Assembly: GCA_023269735.1 (NCBI GenBank)
Contig: JAGDWA010000005.1
Location: 1-43,352 of the forward strand
Length of the DNA: 43,352 nt
DNA from: Thermofilum sp.
Lineage (GTDB): Archaea > Thermoproteota > Thermoprotei > Thermofilales > Thermofilaceae
Reading direction: 5' to 3'
Made by a program: the position numbers and the translations under genes. Under the pieces are notes generated by a model, which ran no database searches, was not told where the DNA came from, and saw nothing but the letters and a program-made list of their open reading frames with translations. Every line of letters begins with the position of its first letter. Position 1 is the first letter of the stretch. This document shows, piece after piece, positions 1 to 35,458 of the stretch.

Positions 1-68
1 GGTTTGGCAGGGTTTGGCAGCCGGGGAGCGGCGTGGGGGCCGGGGCGCGCGGGGCGAGGGAGAGAAGG

Positions 69-80
69 GAATAAATAATA
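69..80 (+). promoter_or_regulatory. TATA-like element (gaataaataata) upstream of the small-ORF operon
   Basis: AT-rich aataaata box in GC-rich DNA just upstream of the ORF at 93; GTG at 99 would fit a leaderless start. Confidence 0.45.
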
Positions 81-92
81 GAGCAGCGCCCA

Positions 93-326
93 ATGCCCGT
101 GGAAGCGGTCCTCACCCAGCAGGCGGCGCGCGCTAAGCTGGCGCTGGAGCTCGCCCGGGAGGCCAGGGGCGACATCCTGAGCGCGGCGAGGAAGCTCGCG
201 GCGGCGGCCGCCCTCCTCGGCTTGGACGGCGCCTCCGACGGGCTCGCGCGCGAGCTCGGGGGGCTGGCCGCCTCGCTGGAGCGCATCTCTGAGGAGCTTC
301 GCAAGGTTCAGAGGGGGGCGCCATGA
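93..326 (+). CDS. small helical protein of unknown function, first ORF of T4SS-like cluster
   Basis: 77-aa ORF; its stop overlaps the next start (ATGA at 323-326); Ala/Leu/Glu-rich helical composition. Confidence 0.6.
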   Translation: MPVEAVLTQQAARAKLALELAREARGDILSAARKLAAAAALLGLDGASDGLARELGGLAASLERISEELRKVQRGAP

Positions 327-676
327 GGCACCTGGAGGCCGCCGCGATCGCCCTGGCGTACGCCTTCGCCGCGGTCTACATGGCGGCCCTGGCCGCGAGG
401 CAGGCAGCGCCGGTGCACCACGTGGGTGCGCAGAGGGCGCTGGCGTGGGCGCTCCTCAACGCCCAGGACCCGCGGAGGGTCTCGGGCCTGCTCGGCCTGG
501 CGCTCAGCGGCGCGCGGGCGCAGGTGCTCGCCGCGGAGGCTGGAGACCTCGCCGCGGCGGCCGGCCAAGCGCAGGCCCAGCTCTCCGGGGTCCAGCTCCC
601 GGTCTGCTACAGCGCCGCGCTCTACAACGCGACGACGGGCGGGTGGGCCCTCGTGACGGTCTGCGCCGGCCCCTGA
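323..676 (+). CDS. small membrane-anchored secreted protein, 2 Cys in C-terminal part
   Basis: 117-aa ORF; N-terminal hydrophobic helix (AAAIALAYAFAAVYMAALAA) then short ectodomain with C..(~20)..C and NAT sequon. Confidence 0.65.
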   Translation: MRHLEAAAIALAYAFAAVYMAALAARQAAPVHHVGAQRALAWALLNAQDPRRVSGLLGLALSGARAQVLAAEAGDLAAAAGQAQAQLSGVQLPVCYSAALYNATTGGWALVTVCAGP

Positions 677-677
677 G

Positions 678-1400
678 GTGGCTTGCATGGGGAGGAGGGG
701 GCAGCTCGCCCTGGTCGGCGCGCTGGCGCTCCTGCTCGCGCTGGTCGCGCTCGTTTCGCTGAGGAGCCCGGAGCCCATTGTGGCCTGCGAGCGGGGCCAC
801 CTGCAGGCGGCGCAGCTCGTGCACCTGGCCAGGGCCTGCATGGCGACGAGGCGGTGCGACCTCGCGGCGCTGAGCTGGCTCGTCCAGCAGCTCTATCAAC
901 TCAACAACACCTACGGCCTCCCGCTCCGCCTCTACCCCACCCGCGTAGTGCGGGCCCCCAACCCTGGCACCATATCTCTGAGGGGGAGGGCGATTACTGT
1001 CACTAACACCACGACCTTCACGATCGCAACGCTGAGGAGCGCGGTGAGTGGGCAGCTCGACGCAGTCGAGGTCGTCGTCACCGCCGCCTCGGAGCCCACC
1101 GGCAGGACCTACCTGAAGGTGGTGGAGGGGAGGGAGTACGCCATGGTCGAGGTGAGGTTGACCTACAGTCACGAGTACCGGTCGCCGTTCTTCAATGTGA
1201 CTCTGTGCCCCTCGCTGGGCGCGCTTGACGGGGTGGCCGACATCAAGCGCGTCGGCGCCTGCGAGTGGCTGGTCGGGGTGCCGCTCCAGCTGGCCCGGCC
1301 CGCTGACATCAACGTCCAGCCGGGGCTGGGCGTGAAGGGCTACAGGTACGAGCTGGTGGACGAGTTCGGCGTCCCCGTGGTCGTGCTGTTCAGGTGGTAG
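678..1400 (+). CDS. membrane-anchored secreted protein with several Cys and sequons
   Basis: 240-aa ORF; N-terminal TM (LALVGALALLLALVALVSL) followed by beta-rich ectodomain; NNT, TNT/NTT, NVT sequons. Confidence 0.65.
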   Translation: MACMGRRGQLALVGALALLLALVALVSLRSPEPIVACERGHLQAAQLVHLARACMATRRCDLAALSWLVQQLYQLNNTYGLPLRLYPTRVVRAPNPGTISLRGRAITVTNTTTFTIATLRSAVSGQLDAVEVVVTAASEPTGRTYLKVVEGREYAMVEVRLTYSHEYRSPFFNVTLCPSLGALDGVADIKRVGACEWLVGVPLQLARPADINVQPGLGVKGYRYELVDEFGVPVVVLFRW

Positions 1401-1732
1401 CCGTGGAGAGGCTCCTCCTCTACCTCGCGCTGGCGGCCGCGGTCGCGTTGATCCTGCTCCAGCTGCCGAGGCTGAGGCCCCAGCCGGACTACTGCGCCGA
1501 GGCGAGGCGGCTCACTGCCACCATCCTGGCCGTCTGGGCGGGCGGGGGCAGCGTCACCGACGCCTTCGACCTGAGGGGCGTGGCGGTGACGCCCACAGGA
1601 GTCAGCTGCGCTCCGTGCGGCGTGAGCGCCAGCGCCCCCATCGAGAGCAGGCTGGGCAGCGGCGAGCTGAGCGGGAGGTGGAGGCTGAGGATCCGCTACC
1701 AGGGCGGCAAGGTCGTTCTGGAGCCCGCGTAG
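1394..1732 (+). CDS. small membrane-anchored secreted protein (pseudopilin-like architecture)
   Basis: 112-aa ORF overlapping previous ORF; N-terminal TM (LLLYLALAAAVALILLQL) and small ectodomain with 3 Cys. Confidence 0.6.
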   Translation: MVAVERLLLYLALAAAVALILLQLPRLRPQPDYCAEARRLTATILAVWAGGGSVTDAFDLRGVAVTPTGVSCAPCGVSASAPIESRLGSGELSGRWRLRIRYQGGKVVLEPA

Positions 1733-1793: not shown

Positions 1794-1803
1794 AAAATAA
1801 ATA
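1794..1803 (+). promoter_or_regulatory. TATA-like box (aaaataaata) for pilin candidate
   Basis: AT-rich box about 35 nt before ATG 1835, followed by ggtgga SD-like sequence at 1828-1833. Confidence 0.5.
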
Positions 1804-1834: not shown

Positions 1835-2221
1835 ATGGTGAGGAGGAGAGCAGCGTTGCTGCTGTGGCTCGCGACGGTCTCTCTCCCATGGAATGTGTAC
1901 GCGGAGGGCCCCACCGTAAACTGGGACAGCTTGAGGGGGTACGCTGTTCTGGCAGCAAAGCTGGCGGTGACAGCTACGGGCATCATGGTGTTCCTCGGGG
2001 CTATCGCAAGGAGTGCCATCGCCGCGCTGAAGAGGCACTTGGGGGGCGCCGCCACAGCTATGGCTCAGAGGGAGATCTATGAGGCCATCGAGGGTCCGCT
2101 CTACTGGCTGATCGCCCTGGCGCTCGCGGCTTGGCTGCCCGACATACTTGTCTCTATAGGGCTGCTGCCCAAGGGAACCCCCTTCACCGTCAGCTGGGAT
2201 GAAATCTTCGGCAGGCCCTGA
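1835..2221 (+). CDS. VirB2/TraA-like (CedA1/TedC-like) two-TM pilin candidate with signal peptide
   Basis: From ATG 1835: MVRRRAALLLWLATVSLPWNVYA|EGPTVNW, then two hydrophobic helices separated by a basic loop (ALKRHLGG). Track ORF begins at TTG 1811; 1835 is preferred because of promoter and SD. Confidence 0.6.
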   Translation: MVRRRAALLLWLATVSLPWNVYAEGPTVNWDSLRGYAVLAAKLAVTATGIMVFLGAIARSAIAALKRHLGGAATAMAQREIYEAIEGPLYWLIALALAAWLPDILVSIGLLPKGTPFTVSWDEIFGRP

Positions 2222-29066: not shown

Positions 29067-30992
29067 GTGGAAGGGGGCACCGAGAGGCGCACTGGCCTGA
29101 CCAAGAGGATCCTGTTCCTCCTGGTGCTCCTGATACCCCTGCTCGTCGCCGCGAACGTCTACGTTGCGCTCGCCGGTGGAGCCTTCGGAGTGCTCAGCAC
29201 CCAGACGCTGGTCCTGCTCTTCGTCTACGTCAGCAGGTACCTCGGCACGGACCTCACAAGGCAGGAGGTCTTCGTCCTGTACTACGCGCTGGCCTTCTCC
29301 TGGATCTTCTTCAGCGCCTACCCCATCCTGTACAGGGCGTACCTGAGGGTGGGTGAGGTCACGAACTCCTTCATGATCGGCGGGGAGCCCGTGGCGAAGC
29401 TGCTGCCAACCTGGTTCGCGCCCCCCGCGAACTCCCCCGTCTACAGGCTGAGGACGCTCTTCCACCCCGACATGGCGCTGCCCTTGCTGGTGCCGCTCGC
29501 CTTCTCCGTCCTCTGGCTCGTCGCCGAGTTGGCGATGCTGATGATGGCGTCCTTCCTCTTCGTGGAGGTGGAGGCCCTTCCCTTCCCCTTCGCACAGGTC
29601 GACTCCGCCTTCATCACGATGATCTCCGAGAGACCGGCCGAGTACCTGAGGGGCTTCCTGCCGATGCTGGGCCTCACCTTCATTTTCGCCTTCCTCATAT
29701 ACCTGCCGAGCGTCGGCATCATCGTTGGGCTACCGGTGCCACCCATCGGCTTCTACGACTTCACGCCGCAGATAACGGACTGGCTGCCCGGCGGCGTCCT
29801 CGGCGTGGAGTTCGTCCCGTGGAGGATCTTCCAGGGCATCATGATGCCCCTGGACGTGACGGCGGCTGCGCTCGTGACCTCAATCGTCGTCTGGACTCTC
29901 CTCAACTCCCTGTTCGTCACCAACCCCTTCCTGAGGTCCCTCTTCCCCGACTGGGCCCAGGAGTACAGGAGGGGCATGTCCTACGGGATGATCGTCGAGA
30001 GGTCCACGCTGAGGATCTGGGCCCCGATCCAGATGGGGTCCCAGCTCGCCCTCTCACTCATGCTGGTGGCCCGCTACCGCAGGGAGATCGCGCGCGCCCT
30101 CTCGGCGCTGGCTAGGGCCAGCAGCGCGCAGGCGCGCGAGTACCCGCCCCTCAAGGTTCTGCTGGGCATGTTCTTCGCTGCCACGCTCGCGGCGAGCGTG
30201 CTCTACTGGCTGCTGATGCCCGGCATCCCCCTCTACCTGATTATGCTGATGGTAGTGGGGCTCGGCCTCCTCATCCCCATAACGAACGCCTACATGACCG
30301 GGAAGGCCGGCCCCTCGCTCGGCATGCCGCCCTACGCGTGGCACTCCGTAGTCTACTCGCTGATCGGCCACATACCGCCGTCCACGCAGGTGACCGCCAT
30401 ACTCTTCGGCCCACCGATGGTGGGCGGCATGACGGGCGGCGGAGCGCAGGCGGTCAAGGTTGCGAGCCTCATCGGCGCTAGGCCCATGGATCTGATCAAG
30501 GTGATAGTAATCTCCTACGTGCTGGGCACAGTTGTCAACATCTTCGTGGTGGACTTGCTGTGGAGGCTGGCGCCGATACCCAGCATGGCCTACCCCAGCA
30601 CCCCCGGCATGAGGGACGCATCGGCGTACGACTGCGTCGTGGCATCCGGCGTGCTCCCGCTGAAGCCCAACGTGATACTGCCGGCGACTGGTATCTTCCT
30701 GCTCATCTATACGGCGATGGAGTCCCTGAACATGGCGTTCCACTGGCCCCTATCGGTGGCAGGAGTCGCGATGGGGCTGACCAACACCCCGGCCACGACG
30801 ATCATGTGGTTCATCTCGTCCGTGCTCGCCAGCATCGCCATACCCAAGCTGGTGGGCAAGGAGAGGGCCGCCCAGTGGAGCAGCCTCAAGGGAGTCTTCG
30901 TGGCAGCGGCCTTCCTCGGCGACGGGCTGGCCAGCACGATCTTCGCGCTAATGGGTTTATTAGGTAGGGCGAGCTGGACGTGGCCGTGGTGA
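29067..30992 (+). CDS. polytopic membrane protein, oligopeptide transporter (OPT)-like
   Basis: 641 aa, many TMs; FGPPMVGGMTGGGAQAVKVASLIGARP and NVILPATGIFLLIYTAMESLN. Confidence 0.55.
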   Translation: MEGGTERRTGLTKRILFLLVLLIPLLVAANVYVALAGGAFGVLSTQTLVLLFVYVSRYLGTDLTRQEVFVLYYALAFSWIFFSAYPILYRAYLRVGEVTNSFMIGGEPVAKLLPTWFAPPANSPVYRLRTLFHPDMALPLLVPLAFSVLWLVAELAMLMMASFLFVEVEALPFPFAQVDSAFITMISERPAEYLRGFLPMLGLTFIFAFLIYLPSVGIIVGLPVPPIGFYDFTPQITDWLPGGVLGVEFVPWRIFQGIMMPLDVTAAALVTSIVVWTLLNSLFVTNPFLRSLFPDWAQEYRRGMSYGMIVERSTLRIWAPIQMGSQLALSLMLVARYRREIARALSALARASSAQAREYPPLKVLLGMFFAATLAASVLYWLLMPGIPLYLIMLMVVGLGLLIPITNAYMTGKAGPSLGMPPYAWHSVVYSLIGHIPPSTQVTAILFGPPMVGGMTGGGAQAVKVASLIGARPMDLIKVIVISYVLGTVVNIFVVDLLWRLAPIPSMAYPSTPGMRDASAYDCVVASGVLPLKPNVILPATGIFLLIYTAMESLNMAFHWPLSVAGVAMGLTNTPATTIMWFISSVLASIAIPKLVGKERAAQWSSLKGVFVAAAFLGDGLASTIFALMGLLGRASWTWPW

Positions 30993-33900
30993 AGAGCATG
31001 AGGGCGCGCCTGATCGCTCTGCTCGCGCTCCTGCTCGCCATACCCCTGCCGCTCAGCCTGGCCCAGCGCCAGAGCGCAGCGGAGGACGCGGCGCTGAGGG
31101 CGATGCGGGGCTTCAACTACACCCGCGTCCTCGAGCTGGCCGAGCGCATCGCCTCCCTGGGCCCCCGGGCCCCAGGCTACCCCGGCTTCGAGAGGGCCTT
31201 CGAGCTGATCGTGGGGGAGGCGCGCAGGCTCAACCTGACGTACGTCGTCCAGAACTTCACGATGCTCGCGCCCGTTGAGACGGAGAGCTACGTTGAGGTG
31301 CTGGAGCCCGTGCACCTGAGGCTCAGGGCGTACAGCCTCTGGCCCAACGGGGGCCTCTTCGCCGGGTCCGGCGTCGTGGAGGGGCCGCTCGTCTACGCCG
31401 GCAGGGGCTCGCTGGAGGAGCTCGACGGGAGGCCCGTGAACGGGAGCATCGTCGCGCTGGAGTACGACGGCAGCGGGGACAGCTGGCTCAACGCGCTCCG
31501 CTTCGGCGCTAAGGCGGTCGTCTACCTGGGCGGCGGGAGGCCGCAGAGGGAGGCGCTCAGCAAGTTCGACCCGCTCGTCCCCGTCCCCTTCATGAGGCTC
31601 TACCTGCCGCCGGCGGAGGCGGGGGCCCTGAGGGGGCTGCTGAGGGGGCCCGTGAGGGTGAGGGTGGGCACGGACATGGAGCTGAGGGAGGTGGTCGGCC
31701 GCAACGTCCTCGTCGAGGTTCCGGGGGTGGAGAAGCCGGACGAGGTGATAATGCTCGTCGCCCACTTCGACTCCTGGTGCGTCGCCCCGGGCCTGGCGAA
31801 CTCGACCGAGGAGGCCCTCTCCACCGCCGCGCTCCTCGAGCTGATGAGGTACTTCGCCGCCAACAGGCCGGCCAGGACCCTCTGGCTCCTCTTCACCTCG
31901 GGCCACTGGAACGGGCTGGTGGGGCCGAGGTACTTCGTCGAGAACTTCATCCTGAGGCGCCCCGACATCGTGAGGGGCGAGAGGACGGTCTGGTGCGTGG
32001 TGGGCCTCGACATCAGCGCGGACCTGCCGGTGGCCTCCCTCACCTACGTGGGCCACTTCTACGTGGCGGCCAGGACCTTCATCACGACGAAGCTGTACTG
32101 GTTCCAGGGCCTCGCCAACACTCTCGTCCCAGTGATCGAACAGTTCCTCAACGAGTCGGGGCTGCCCCAGCACGAGGGGCTCCGAAGCGTGATAAGGAGG
32201 CTCGACGTGCTAAGGCCGATCGACCTCACCCACGGCCCTGACTGGATGTGGTCCAGCACGATGAGCAAGCCCTACGTCCTCGACACGGAGCCGTTCGTCG
32301 TTGCGGGGATGGCTGCGTTCACCCTCAGGACGAGCTACAGCTACAGGCCCTACGAGGGCGAGCCCGCCAGCGACCTGGCGTACGTGAGGGAGAACTTCAG
32401 GGACAGGGTCGTGCCGCAGCTGGCGGCTGCAGCGGCGCTGGCGGCGGCGCTACTGAACGTGCCCGAGATCGGGGTGATGAAGAGCCTGATCCTCCCCACG
32501 CGGCTCCACCCGCTGCTGTACTGGGGCTTCCTCCAGCTGAGCGTCCAGGTCCTCCAGTACAACATCACGAGGGGCTGGTACGACACCGTCCCCCACGCGA
32601 TCGTGAGGGTCGGCAGGTGGAGCAGCTACCCGTTCGCCTGGATCTTCGAGAGGGCGGACAGCAACGGGACGGCCCTCATCTACGGCGTCACCCCCCAGGG
32701 CCTGAACTCGTGGTACGTCGAGGCGTGGAAGCCCCTCAACGGGACCTGGGTCGTGGCCCCGGCCTGGGGGATGCGCAGCGGGGGGCCGCAGTGGATCAGC
32801 CTGCTCGTGCCGAGGGGCTACGTCAGCGTCTACGTGATGCCGATGCGGTACAGGATCCTCGTTGACATGTACAACCCGAGGCTGATGAGGCGCACGCTTG
32901 AGGACCCCAGGTACGGTTCGATGGACGTCTGGGCTGGAGGAGGGGCCTGGCCCACGCCCTTCGAGACATCGACCGGCATCGTCCCACTCTACCAGTTCGT
33001 CTCCGCGTTCGATAGGACCGGCGTCTACATGCAGTTCCTCTCCCGCGTCGAGAACCTGACTGTAACGCTCAGCGCGGGCATGAGGTGGCCGGTTGGCATC
33101 GCGATCGGTAAGGAGAGGGTCTACTGGGCTCTCGACTACGCCGTGGGCACCTACACGGTGGCTGAGCAGAGGTACTCGCTGCTCAGCGCGAGGGAGGTGA
33201 GGAGGCTGAGCGCCGACCTGATGCTGGACTACGCTCGCGATTACTTGAGCGAGGCGGAGAGGGCCCTCGAGAACCTGAAGTGGAGCTCCGCGTACGGGAG
33301 CGCGCTGGCGGCGTGGAGCTTCGCTTCGAGGGCCTACACCGACGAGGTGATGCCGCTGTTCGAGGAGTGCATCAGGTCCGCCACGCTCTTCGTCCCCTTC
33401 GTGGTGGTCAGCGGGTACTTCCTGGAGAGGCTCCTGACGAGGGGCGAGGGCTTCAGGATGATCCTCAACGTCTTCGCGTTCGAGATGGCGCTCTTCCTAC
33501 TATTCGCTTTCACCCACCCGGCATTCTGGGTCGTGCCCAGCACCACGCTGGCGGCCCTGGCGATAGGCATGATGATACTCATGGCGATCGTCCTGTGGAT
33601 CTTCTACAGGGAGGCCCGCGACATAGTGTCCGAGGTGGCGGCCAAGACCCTGGGCTACCACGAGGTGGTCACCGAGAGGACGGCGGCCACCCTCATGGCA
33701 ATTTCGCTATCGACGGAGCACATGAGGAAGCGCCCGCTGAGGTCGATCCTCACGCTGGTCCCCATCGCCGTCTTCGCGATGGCCGCCGTCTCGCTGGCCT
33801 CGGTATCACCGTACACCATCGTGCTGGAGAAGCAGGTAGAGGGGGCCACGCCGCTATTCTACGGCTTCACCCTGAAGAGGGGCTTCGCAACGCTGGGCGA

Positions 33901-35458
33901 CTTGCTCGATTACCCGACGGTCGACATGGTGAAGGCGATCGTCGGCAACAAGGGGTACGTGTGCCCGCGCATCGTCTACTACTCGCCGTCCGTCATCAAC
34001 CTAGGGCCCTACGGGCTGCTGATCTCTCACAACTACAGCATCCCGGTACCGGCGGTCGTCGGCCTCACGCCGGAGATGGCCGCTTACTTGATGGGGAGGG
34101 CGATGGTCAAGGGCCTGCCCAAGCCGTTCCTCAGCGAGGATCAACCGGCGATACTCCTGCCCTCCACGCTGGCCCAGCTGCTGGGCGTGGACGTGGGCGA
34201 CGAGGTGGAGCTCTACGGCATGAAGCTCACAGTGACGGGGATCTACTCGGACACCGCGATGGACGCCCTGCGCGACCCCGACGGCCTGAGAATATCCCCG
34301 ATGGACTCGGTGTACTACGCGCAGCTGCACGGCTTCGCCGTCCCGATGGGCACGGGCGTCGTCCCCCAGCCCTACGAGTGGGGTCGAATAGCGATAGTGC
34401 CCAGCGGAGTAGCCAAGATGCTGGGCGGCAAGGTCTACGTGATCGACGTGATCCTGAAGCCCAACGTGACTGAGAGCGAGTACGAGGAGATAGCGAGAAG
34501 GCTCGCCTACTCGGTCGACGCGTCTTGCTACGGGGGCAAGAGGGACGGCAGCGTCGTGGCCTACTCCAGGTTCCCGACGTACACGGCGATGGGCTGGGAG
34601 ATGATGGTAGCGCCCTTCGCCATAACCTCTCTCAGCATCGTCGTGTCGCTCCTGGGCAGCGTGAGGGAGAGGACGAGGGACATCTACGTCTACAGCAGCG
34701 TGGGGCTCTCGCCGGCGGGCGCGATGCTCATGTTCCTCACGGAGTTCGCCGTCTACGGGTTCCTGGGCGCGACCATCGGCTACTTCGCGGGCTGGGCGAT
34801 GAGCAAGGTGATGAGGGCTTTCGGCGTCCTGCCGGCGACGTTCGTCTTTAACTACGCCTCCATCGCCATCAGCAGCGTCCTGGTCCTAGTGCTGACTTCG
34901 ACGCTGGTAGCAGCCTCCTACCCAGCGTACCTCGCCTCCAAGATCATCACGCCGTCGCTGGAGAGGAAGTGGAAGATACCGAGGGCGCCCAGGGGCACCA
35001 TGTGGGACATACCGCTCCCCTTCAGGGTGCCGACGGAGAGGGAGGCGCAGGCCGTCCTGCTGTACCTGCAGGAGTACTACATGGGGGCCGGCTACGAGAA
35101 GAAGGTGTTCAAGGTCTCTAGCGACCCCAGGGTGGACGTGGGGGAGAAGCGGCTGACGCTGAACGTCATGCTCTACCCGTTCGACGCAGGGACCGAGCAG
35201 GAGGTCACGATCTACTTCGTGAGGGAGAGGGCCGGCGGCTGGAGGGCAGCTGCGAGCCTCAGGCTGCTGAAGGGCCTGGGCTCTGTGTGGACGGGGCCCT
35301 CGCAGTACGGCTTCATAGACGACCTGAGGAAGCAGATGCTGCTGTGGGGCACGCTGCCCTCAGCCGAGAGGGCGAAGTACATAAGGAGGGTCTACGAGCT
35401 CCTGAGCGAAGTGATGAAACCCGAGCAGGAGAGCGGTGAACGCGAGCCTAAAGGCTGA
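30980..35458 (+). CDS. secreted M28-like (pseudo)peptidase fused to FtsX/MacB-type permease module
   Basis: signal peptide; NVLVEVPGVEKPDEVIMLVAHFDSW...LLFTSGHWNGLVGPRYFVENF (M28-like); C-terminal MacB-PCD/FtsX-like region (KRPLRSILTLVPIAVFAM ... SIVVSLLGSVRERTRDIYVYSSVGLSPAGAMLMFLTEFAVYGFLGATIGY). Confidence 0.75.
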   Translation: MAVVKSMRARLIALLALLLAIPLPLSLAQRQSAAEDAALRAMRGFNYTRVLELAERIASLGPRAPGYPGFERAFELIVGEARRLNLTYVVQNFTMLAPVETESYVEVLEPVHLRLRAYSLWPNGGLFAGSGVVEGPLVYAGRGSLEELDGRPVNGSIVALEYDGSGDSWLNALRFGAKAVVYLGGGRPQREALSKFDPLVPVPFMRLYLPPAEAGALRGLLRGPVRVRVGTDMELREVVGRNVLVEVPGVEKPDEVIMLVAHFDSWCVAPGLANSTEEALSTAALLELMRYFAANRPARTLWLLFTSGHWNGLVGPRYFVENFILRRPDIVRGERTVWCVVGLDISADLPVASLTYVGHFYVAARTFITTKLYWFQGLANTLVPVIEQFLNESGLPQHEGLRSVIRRLDVLRPIDLTHGPDWMWSSTMSKPYVLDTEPFVVAGMAAFTLRTSYSYRPYEGEPASDLAYVRENFRDRVVPQLAAAAALAAALLNVPEIGVMKSLILPTRLHPLLYWGFLQLSVQVLQYNITRGWYDTVPHAIVRVGRWSSYPFAWIFERADSNGTALIYGVTPQGLNSWYVEAWKPLNGTWVVAPAWGMRSGGPQWISLLVPRGYVSVYVMPMRYRILVDMYNPRLMRRTLEDPRYGSMDVWAGGGAWPTPFETSTGIVPLYQFVSAFDRTGVYMQFLSRVENLTVTLSAGMRWPVGIAIGKERVYWALDYAVGTYTVAEQRYSLLSAREVRRLSADLMLDYARDYLSEAERALENLKWSSAYGSALAAWSFASRAYTDEVMPLFEECIRSATLFVPFVVVSGYFLERLLTRGEGFRMILNVFAFEMALFLLFAFTHPAFWVVPSTTLAALAIGMMILMAIVLWIFYREARDIVSEVAAKTLGYHEVVTERTAATLMAISLSTEHMRKRPLRSILTLVPIAVFAMAAVSLASVSPYTIVLEKQVEGATPLFYGFTLKRGFATLGDLLDYPTVDMVKAIVGNKGYVCPRIVYYSPSVINLGPYGLLISHNYSIPVPAVVGLTPEMAAYLMGRAMVKGLPKPFLSEDQPAILLPSTLAQLLGVDVGDEVELYGMKLTVTGIYSDTAMDALRDPDGLRISPMDSVYYAQLHGFAVPMGTGVVPQPYEWGRIAIVPSGVAKMLGGKVYVIDVILKPNVTESEYEEIARRLAYSVDASCYGGKRDGSVVAYSRFPTYTAMGWEMMVAPFAITSLSIVVSLLGSVRERTRDIYVYSSVGLSPAGAMLMFLTEFAVYGFLGATIGYFAGWAMSKVMRAFGVLPATFVFNYASIAISSVLVLVLTSTLVAASYPAYLASKIITPSLERKWKIPRAPRGTMWDIPLPFRVPTEREAQAVLLYLQEYYMGAGYEKKVFKVSSDPRVDVGEKRLTLNVMLYPFDAGTEQEVTIYFVRERAGGWRAAASLRLLKGLGSVWTGPSQYGFIDDLRKQMLLWGTLPSAERAKYIRRVYELLSEVMKPEQESGEREPKG

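Follow-up and report, generated by a model that had tools for sequence, protein, structure and literature searches.

A Thermofilales gene for a probable VirB2/TedC-type pilin within a chromosomal locus of Ted-like make-up

The closest described relatives of the locus considered here are two archaeal systems, the Ted system of the Thermoproteales, whose pilin TedC is known from P. calidifontis (PDB 8DFT; PMC9905601), and the Ced system (CedA1, CedA, CedB and CedD) of the Sulfolobales and Desulfurococcales (PMC9905601, PMC11868833). As far as the accessible portions of the literature go, homologues of VirB2, VirB4 and VirB6 only are described for Ced and Ted. With Ted, the present locus shares its chromosomal location, a two-helix hairpin pilin whose leader ends in A-X-A (cleavable in TedC and predicted to be so here), a pilin gene directly before tedA, a VirB4-like ATPase and a giant membrane protein encoded after tedA. 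It differs from that system in having no BLAST-level similarity to it; here the TedB gene adjoins that of the giant protein, termed BIG (1238 aa, as against a 5058-aa ORF in P. calidifontis), and Thermofilales loci include class III pilins, a candidate platform protein and a VirB11-type ATPase.

With Ced, and with CedA1 by description, the locus has in common a two-helix pilin, a VirB6-like channel, a HerA/VirB4-like ATPase and a pairing with type IV pili (Ups). However, CedA1 is reported to be uncleaved (PMC9905601, PMC11868833), whereas the leader here is predicted to be cleavable, and Ups is a system apart from Ced, while in the present case the type IV pilin genes lie within the locus itself. 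Bacterial conjugation pilins of the VirB2/TraA kind are similar by description (signal peptide, hairpin, basic loop, VirB4 and VirB6 homologues), and a VirB11-type ATPase is a further common element in many related Thermofilales loci; unlike in bacterial conjugation, VirB7/9/10 outer-membrane core genes and a relaxase were not seen. Lastly, the type IV pilus loci of the Thermoproteales (Makarova 2016, PMC4858521) resemble it in their VirB11-family ATPase, MinD/ParA-type ATPase, small helical proteins and large secreted proteins, but in the accessible part of that paper they are not linked to Ted genes, and the Thermofilales ATPases form a clade of their own.

The window analysed is a stretch of 43,352 nucleotides from a thermophilic and little-studied archaeon, the entire contig C15 of a 1.5 Mb Thermofilales genome in 148 contigs, and its annotated features are collected in Table 1. 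The first-pass annotation had proposed a VirB2/TraA-like pilin with its own promoter, and this feature was confirmed overall, as the ORF, the leader, the two helices, the basic loop and the TATA-like box are all present. The pilin reading has moved beyond hydropathy alone, since it is now supported by profile similarity to TedC, by the TedA, BIG and TedB genes next in line and by conserved synteny. The gene probably encodes the pilin subunit of a Ted-like DNA-exchange system, an identity most likely because the pilin profile links to TedC and because TedA and the BIG N-terminus also match Ted proteins. Judged from sequence, TedA and BIG can be taken as homologues of the Ted proteins, and the pilin more weakly so.

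Table 1. Features annotated around the pilin gene (window coordinates; a slash marks a predicted cleavage site).
Feature	Coordinates	Strand	Basis or remark
77-aa ORF overlapping next gene	93..326	+	own AT box AATAAATAATAG
Small secreted/anchored protein, one N-terminal TM, minor pilin-like	323..676	+	homologues directly upstream in G003, G006, G009
Minor pilin-like protein, class III leader-like site RG/QLAL	678..1400	+	site kept in G003, G009 homologues; synteny
Small secreted/anchored protein, one N-terminal TM, minor pilin-like	1394..1732	+	homologues directly before pilin in five relatives
TATA-like promoter element AAAATAAATA	1794..1803	+	unique match in window; AT-rich boxes in relatives
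TedC/VirB2-type pilin precursor (probable), 128 aa	1835..2221	+	ATG start, TGA stop
Predicted Sec leader, residues 1-23, cleavage VYA/EG	1835..1903	+	[AV]-X-A junction; leader divergent vs conserved mature part
Hydrophobic helix 1, residues 39-57 (modelled helix 30-69)	1949..2005	+	hydropathy; AF2
Basic interhelical loop ALKRHLGG, residues 64-71	2024..2047	+	translation; basic in close relatives
Hydrophobic helix 2, residues 93-111 (modelled helix 74-107)	2111..2167	+	hydropathy; AF2
TedA/CedA/VirB6-like polytopic membrane protein, 264 aa	2228..3022	+	hhalign to Thermoproteaceae TedA
BIG, 1238 aa	3027..6743	+	N-terminus match to giant ORF after Pyrobaculum TedA
TedB/VirB4-like ATPase, 737 aa	6746..8959	+	Pfam, NCBIfam, matches to TedB-type ATPases elsewhere

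The pilin ORF is coding and under purifying selection, which is firmly established because dN of the mature part is 0.20-0.28 in four relatives with synonymous sites near or at saturation (in the comparison with G001, dN is 0.20 and dS 2.0). The mature part is 64-75% identical to these four relatives, in which merely 2-5 positions of leader residues 2-22 match. The leader reads MVRRRAALLLWLATVSLPWNVYA, followed by EGPTVN, and the conserved block GPTVNWDALR begins exactly behind the predicted cut, the leader itself being almost unconserved. On the basis of motif and conservation, with [AV]-X-A at the junction in 8/8 homologues, a signal peptidase I-type junction is predicted; the earlier claim of a Sec-type signal stood, and its motif AYA/EG was a small misreading of VYA/EG. 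The two hydrophobic helices and the short basic loop were likewise borne out by the peaks of the hydropathy window and by an AlphaFold2 model, an antiparallel hairpin and hence the fold foreseen, with a mean pLDDT of 72.8 from an alignment of two sequences only. Foldseek and VIA returned only unspecific helical hairpins, with no pilus chain among the matches, so the fold search speaks neither for nor against a pilin.

Homologues of the pilin are confined to the Thermofilales, with confident matches in 8 of 398 genomes. Searches of the PDB, Pfam and NCBIfam gave zero matches, the pilin belonging to no database family; nothing matched among plasmids and viral contigs, and a scan of genome contigs matched one locus, in Thermofilales archaeon isolate RSNS8. 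The TedC family was rebuilt from P. calidifontis and relatives, the P. calidifontis gene agreeing at 99% identity across 95 aa with the sequence of the 8DFT pilus subunit, as read from the 8DFT alignment. Compared with this family by hhalign, the profile of window-type pilins gave E 3e-4 and P 40, and the six closer relatives alone P 3.5. A combined profile of window-type pilins and a second Thermofilales pilin type reached P 88 and E 2.7e-6 over 103 columns with a score of 42.3, whereas none of 60 block permutations scored above 34.3 and the reversed control gave an E of 0.14; reversed controls were negative for the window-type profile as well. The pilin profile also matches the TedA N-terminus (E 9e-5), as reported for CedA1 and CedA.

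The pilin gene is the first in a tightly packed block with the TedA-like, BIG and TedB-like genes, so that the window holds TedA beside the pilin and TedB in the locus. TedA aligned to Thermoproteaceae TedA at P 92 and E 5e-7 over 231 columns (reversed control E 0.34); its AlphaFold2 model, at pLDDT 36, was unusable. BIG is laid out as an N-terminal TM domain, a long loop, further TMs and a cytoplasmic C-terminus, and at its N-terminus it is matched by the giant ORF behind Pyrobaculum tedA, again in the N-terminal part (P 97, E 1.6e-10). As the N-terminal domains of BIG and TedA are weakly related (E 1e-5 to 1e-3), BIG may represent an extended, second protein of the VirB6-like kind. TedB matches Pfam DUF87/HerA (1e-7), the VirB4 and CedB/CedD models of NCBIfam and TedB-type ATPases in other genomes. 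As to the size of the giant ORF, an uninterrupted frame of 5058 codons follows tedA in the P. calidifontis-like genome G031 (L138:515-15691), with an N-terminal TM domain that matches BIG, and genomes related to it have open frames of >2700 aa in the same place.

The order pilin-TedA-BIG-TedB is conserved in G001, G002, G003 and G006. The first three genes lie together on one contig in G007 and G018, with the TedB-like gene on a different contig, while in G009 the three larger small upstream genes, pilin, TedA and BIG are kept in order and TedB lies about 20 kb upstream. A Sua5/TsaC gene follows the block in the window and three congeners. Among the genes examined no relaxase was found. Elsewhere in the window, a 1492-aa ORF (30980-35458) seems to combine a peptidase-like extracellular portion with one that resembles a permease.

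Two other ways of reading the gene can be weighed against these data. It might encode a membrane-resident accessory subunit of the same machine, a two-TM protein like VirB3 or CedA2 that does not polymerise; a two-helix membrane protein directly before a VirB6-like gene would suit such a role, and the fold search cannot separate pilins from other hairpins. The profile similarity to TedC, the conserved [AV]-X-A junction of the leader, the tedC-like position before tedA and the lack of any other TedC candidate in the block all argue against it, and it is considered unlikely. Still harder to sustain is a small membrane protein unrelated to pili that is merely located in the operon: the product is short, hydrophobic and devoid of Pfam or NCBIfam matches, but the synteny is conserved over several genera and the TedC similarity exceeds both the permutation and the reversed controls, which leaves this quite improbable.

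Upstream of the pilin gene, the proposed TATA-like box was found as the sole match at <=1 mismatch in the window, with 0.01 expected, and most relatives, G006 and G009 among them, have AT-rich boxes 5' of the pilin start. A promoter belonging to the pilin gene is plausible and conserved. The GGTG Shine-Dalgarno-like site is indeed present (1827-1830), but it is too short to carry evidential value. The gap to the preceding gene is 102 bp in the window, as against 26 bp in G006 and 10 bp in G009. The small ORFs upstream can be called separate, as had been proposed, only in the sense that a promoter boundary may lie between them and the pilin gene: in several genomes three of the four keep synteny with the pilin, and these three are probably part of the same apparatus. 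The middle one of the three may start at ATG 687 instead. No homologue was found in a search with the 77-aa ORF; the box directly before it (AATAAATAATAGAG, window 66-92) resembles that of the pilin gene.

The region upstream in G003, G006 and G009 also encodes ParA, an ATPase of the T2SSE/VirB11 family (PF00437, E 2e-15) and a short protein with a coiled coil, together with small pilins whose leaders are class III-like, a polytopic protein of 405-421 aa and large secreted proteins. The polytopic protein, present in 8/8 genomes with the window-type pilin and not recognised by Pfam or NCBIfam, is a candidate TadC-like platform, so labelled because it has transmembrane segments and is encoded next to genes for class III pilins and for a secretion ATPase. 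The source genome carries these wider-locus genes on another contig, C12; as no convincing overlap with the window start was found, the two were left unjoined. The VirB11-type ATPase gene on C12 (L115:1936-3173) is broken at a 10-N scaffold gap (2464-2473), and its reading frame cannot be judged because of it. The minor-pilin and large secreted genes there (L115:6606-9682) run opposite to the G003 order, through inversion or scaffolding error. In G009, Rad51-family, Cas4-like, zinc-finger, AAA and ParB-like genes lie between TedB and the pilus genes (L055:4636-8671), and a Rad51-family gene recurs in Ted loci of Pyrobaculum and Thermoproteus.

Ten Thermofilales genomes carry another set of genes, here called type 2 (L147, L059, L190-L195, L198, L199): a pilin (pilin2) of a separate family with a GGSFGRS loop, TedA and BIG2 and, where the contig is long enough, a short TedB2 and an additional protein of about 355 aa. 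Since the latter matches the TedB N-terminal domain (E 1.2e-6 over 277 columns, reversed control negative), the type 2 VirB4 looks split into two genes. TedB2 matches the CedD model, and for that reason it may be what was recorded as CedD in Thermofilales (PMC11868833). Both Ted types occur in G009. A ParA gene lies divergently beside pilin2 in G009, G011, G012, G013, G014, G015 and, partly, G016, and is followed by the VirB11-type ATPase in G009, G011, G012, G013 and G015; in G014 the ATPase is absent at that spot. In G024, ParA, the ATPase and a TadC-like gene stand beside TedA. The type 2 loci have pilin and TedA and no class III pilins, and in the near-complete G011, G012 and G013, where the ATPase adjoins Ted genes, the TadC-like family had zero matches.

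That the pilin gene instead encodes a type IV pilin or pseudopilin of the neighbouring type IV pilus genes is the least probable reading of all: class III-leader pilins, a VirB11/TadA-type ATPase and a candidate platform do occur in the same locus of relatives and on C12, and RRRA/AL near the pilin start loosely resembles a class III site, but that site is not conserved and no PibD-type site is conserved in the homologues, two helices rather than one N-terminal helix follow the leader, the profile similarity goes to TedC, and type 2 loci pair pilin and TedA without class III pilins.

Many Thermofilales Ted loci thus hold a VirB11-type ATPase beside a ParA gene. In a maximum-likelihood tree, 14 Ted-linked ATPases (one of which, G018_C12, adjoins ParA but not Ted genes on its contig) stood apart from 10 other family members of the same genomes with support of 100/100; because the tree has long branches, is midpoint-rooted and contains no bacterial outgroup, it speaks for a distinct clade and not for VirB11 identity. 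Several of the 10 others adjoin two ordinary TadC-like genes. The best NCBIfam match was VirB11 for the type 2 ATPase (E 6e-9) and the TadA family for a type 1 ATPase. A role of the VirB11-type ATPase in the Ted machine rather than in a type IV pilus is favoured, because it shares type 2 loci, which lack class III pilins, with Ted genes and also occurs in genomes that have no match to the TadC-like family, and the cluster seems to carry motor genes so far unreported for the archaeal Ted machine. Neither VirB11 in Ced or Ted nor a Thermofilales pilin is reported in the accessible text of PMC9905601 and PMC11868833, the literature search having lain largely outside subscription papers.

For a TedC-like pilin, the following scheme can be proposed. 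The precursor would pass through Sec and be cut after VYA by signal peptidase I, leaving a membrane-embedded hairpin whose basic loop lies on one face. The VirB4-like TedB would extract the subunits, with TedA (VirB6-like) and BIG forming the membrane platform, and, by analogy, hairpins and lipids would assemble into a narrow pilus, distantly related to bacterial conjugation pili, with the basic loops lining its lumen. Through such a pilus, single-stranded DNA might pass from cell to cell and serve recombinational repair, both the formation of the pilus and the transfer of DNA being extrapolated from the Ced and Ted work (PMC9905601, PMC11868833).

The gene would extend conjugation-type pili to another archaeal order, one with cultivated members. 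Two features go beyond the published Ted and Ced systems, namely the VirB11-type ATPase beside ParA and, in the locus of the window lineage, the type IV pilins with the candidate platform. It is possible, though rather less than evenly so, that the ATPase and the ParA/VirC1-like protein are true Ted components and that the type IV pilus module belongs to this lineage's locus, which would make a fuller machine than Ced or Ted. The VirB11-type ATPase, the conserved BIG and the split VirB4 are concrete candidates for missing parts, and, with type IV pilin genes lying in the same locus, the link of aggregation pili to DNA-transfer pili can be put to the test. If the fuller machine is real, cell-cell contact (the role of Ups) and DNA transfer (the role of Ced) would come from one gene cluster.
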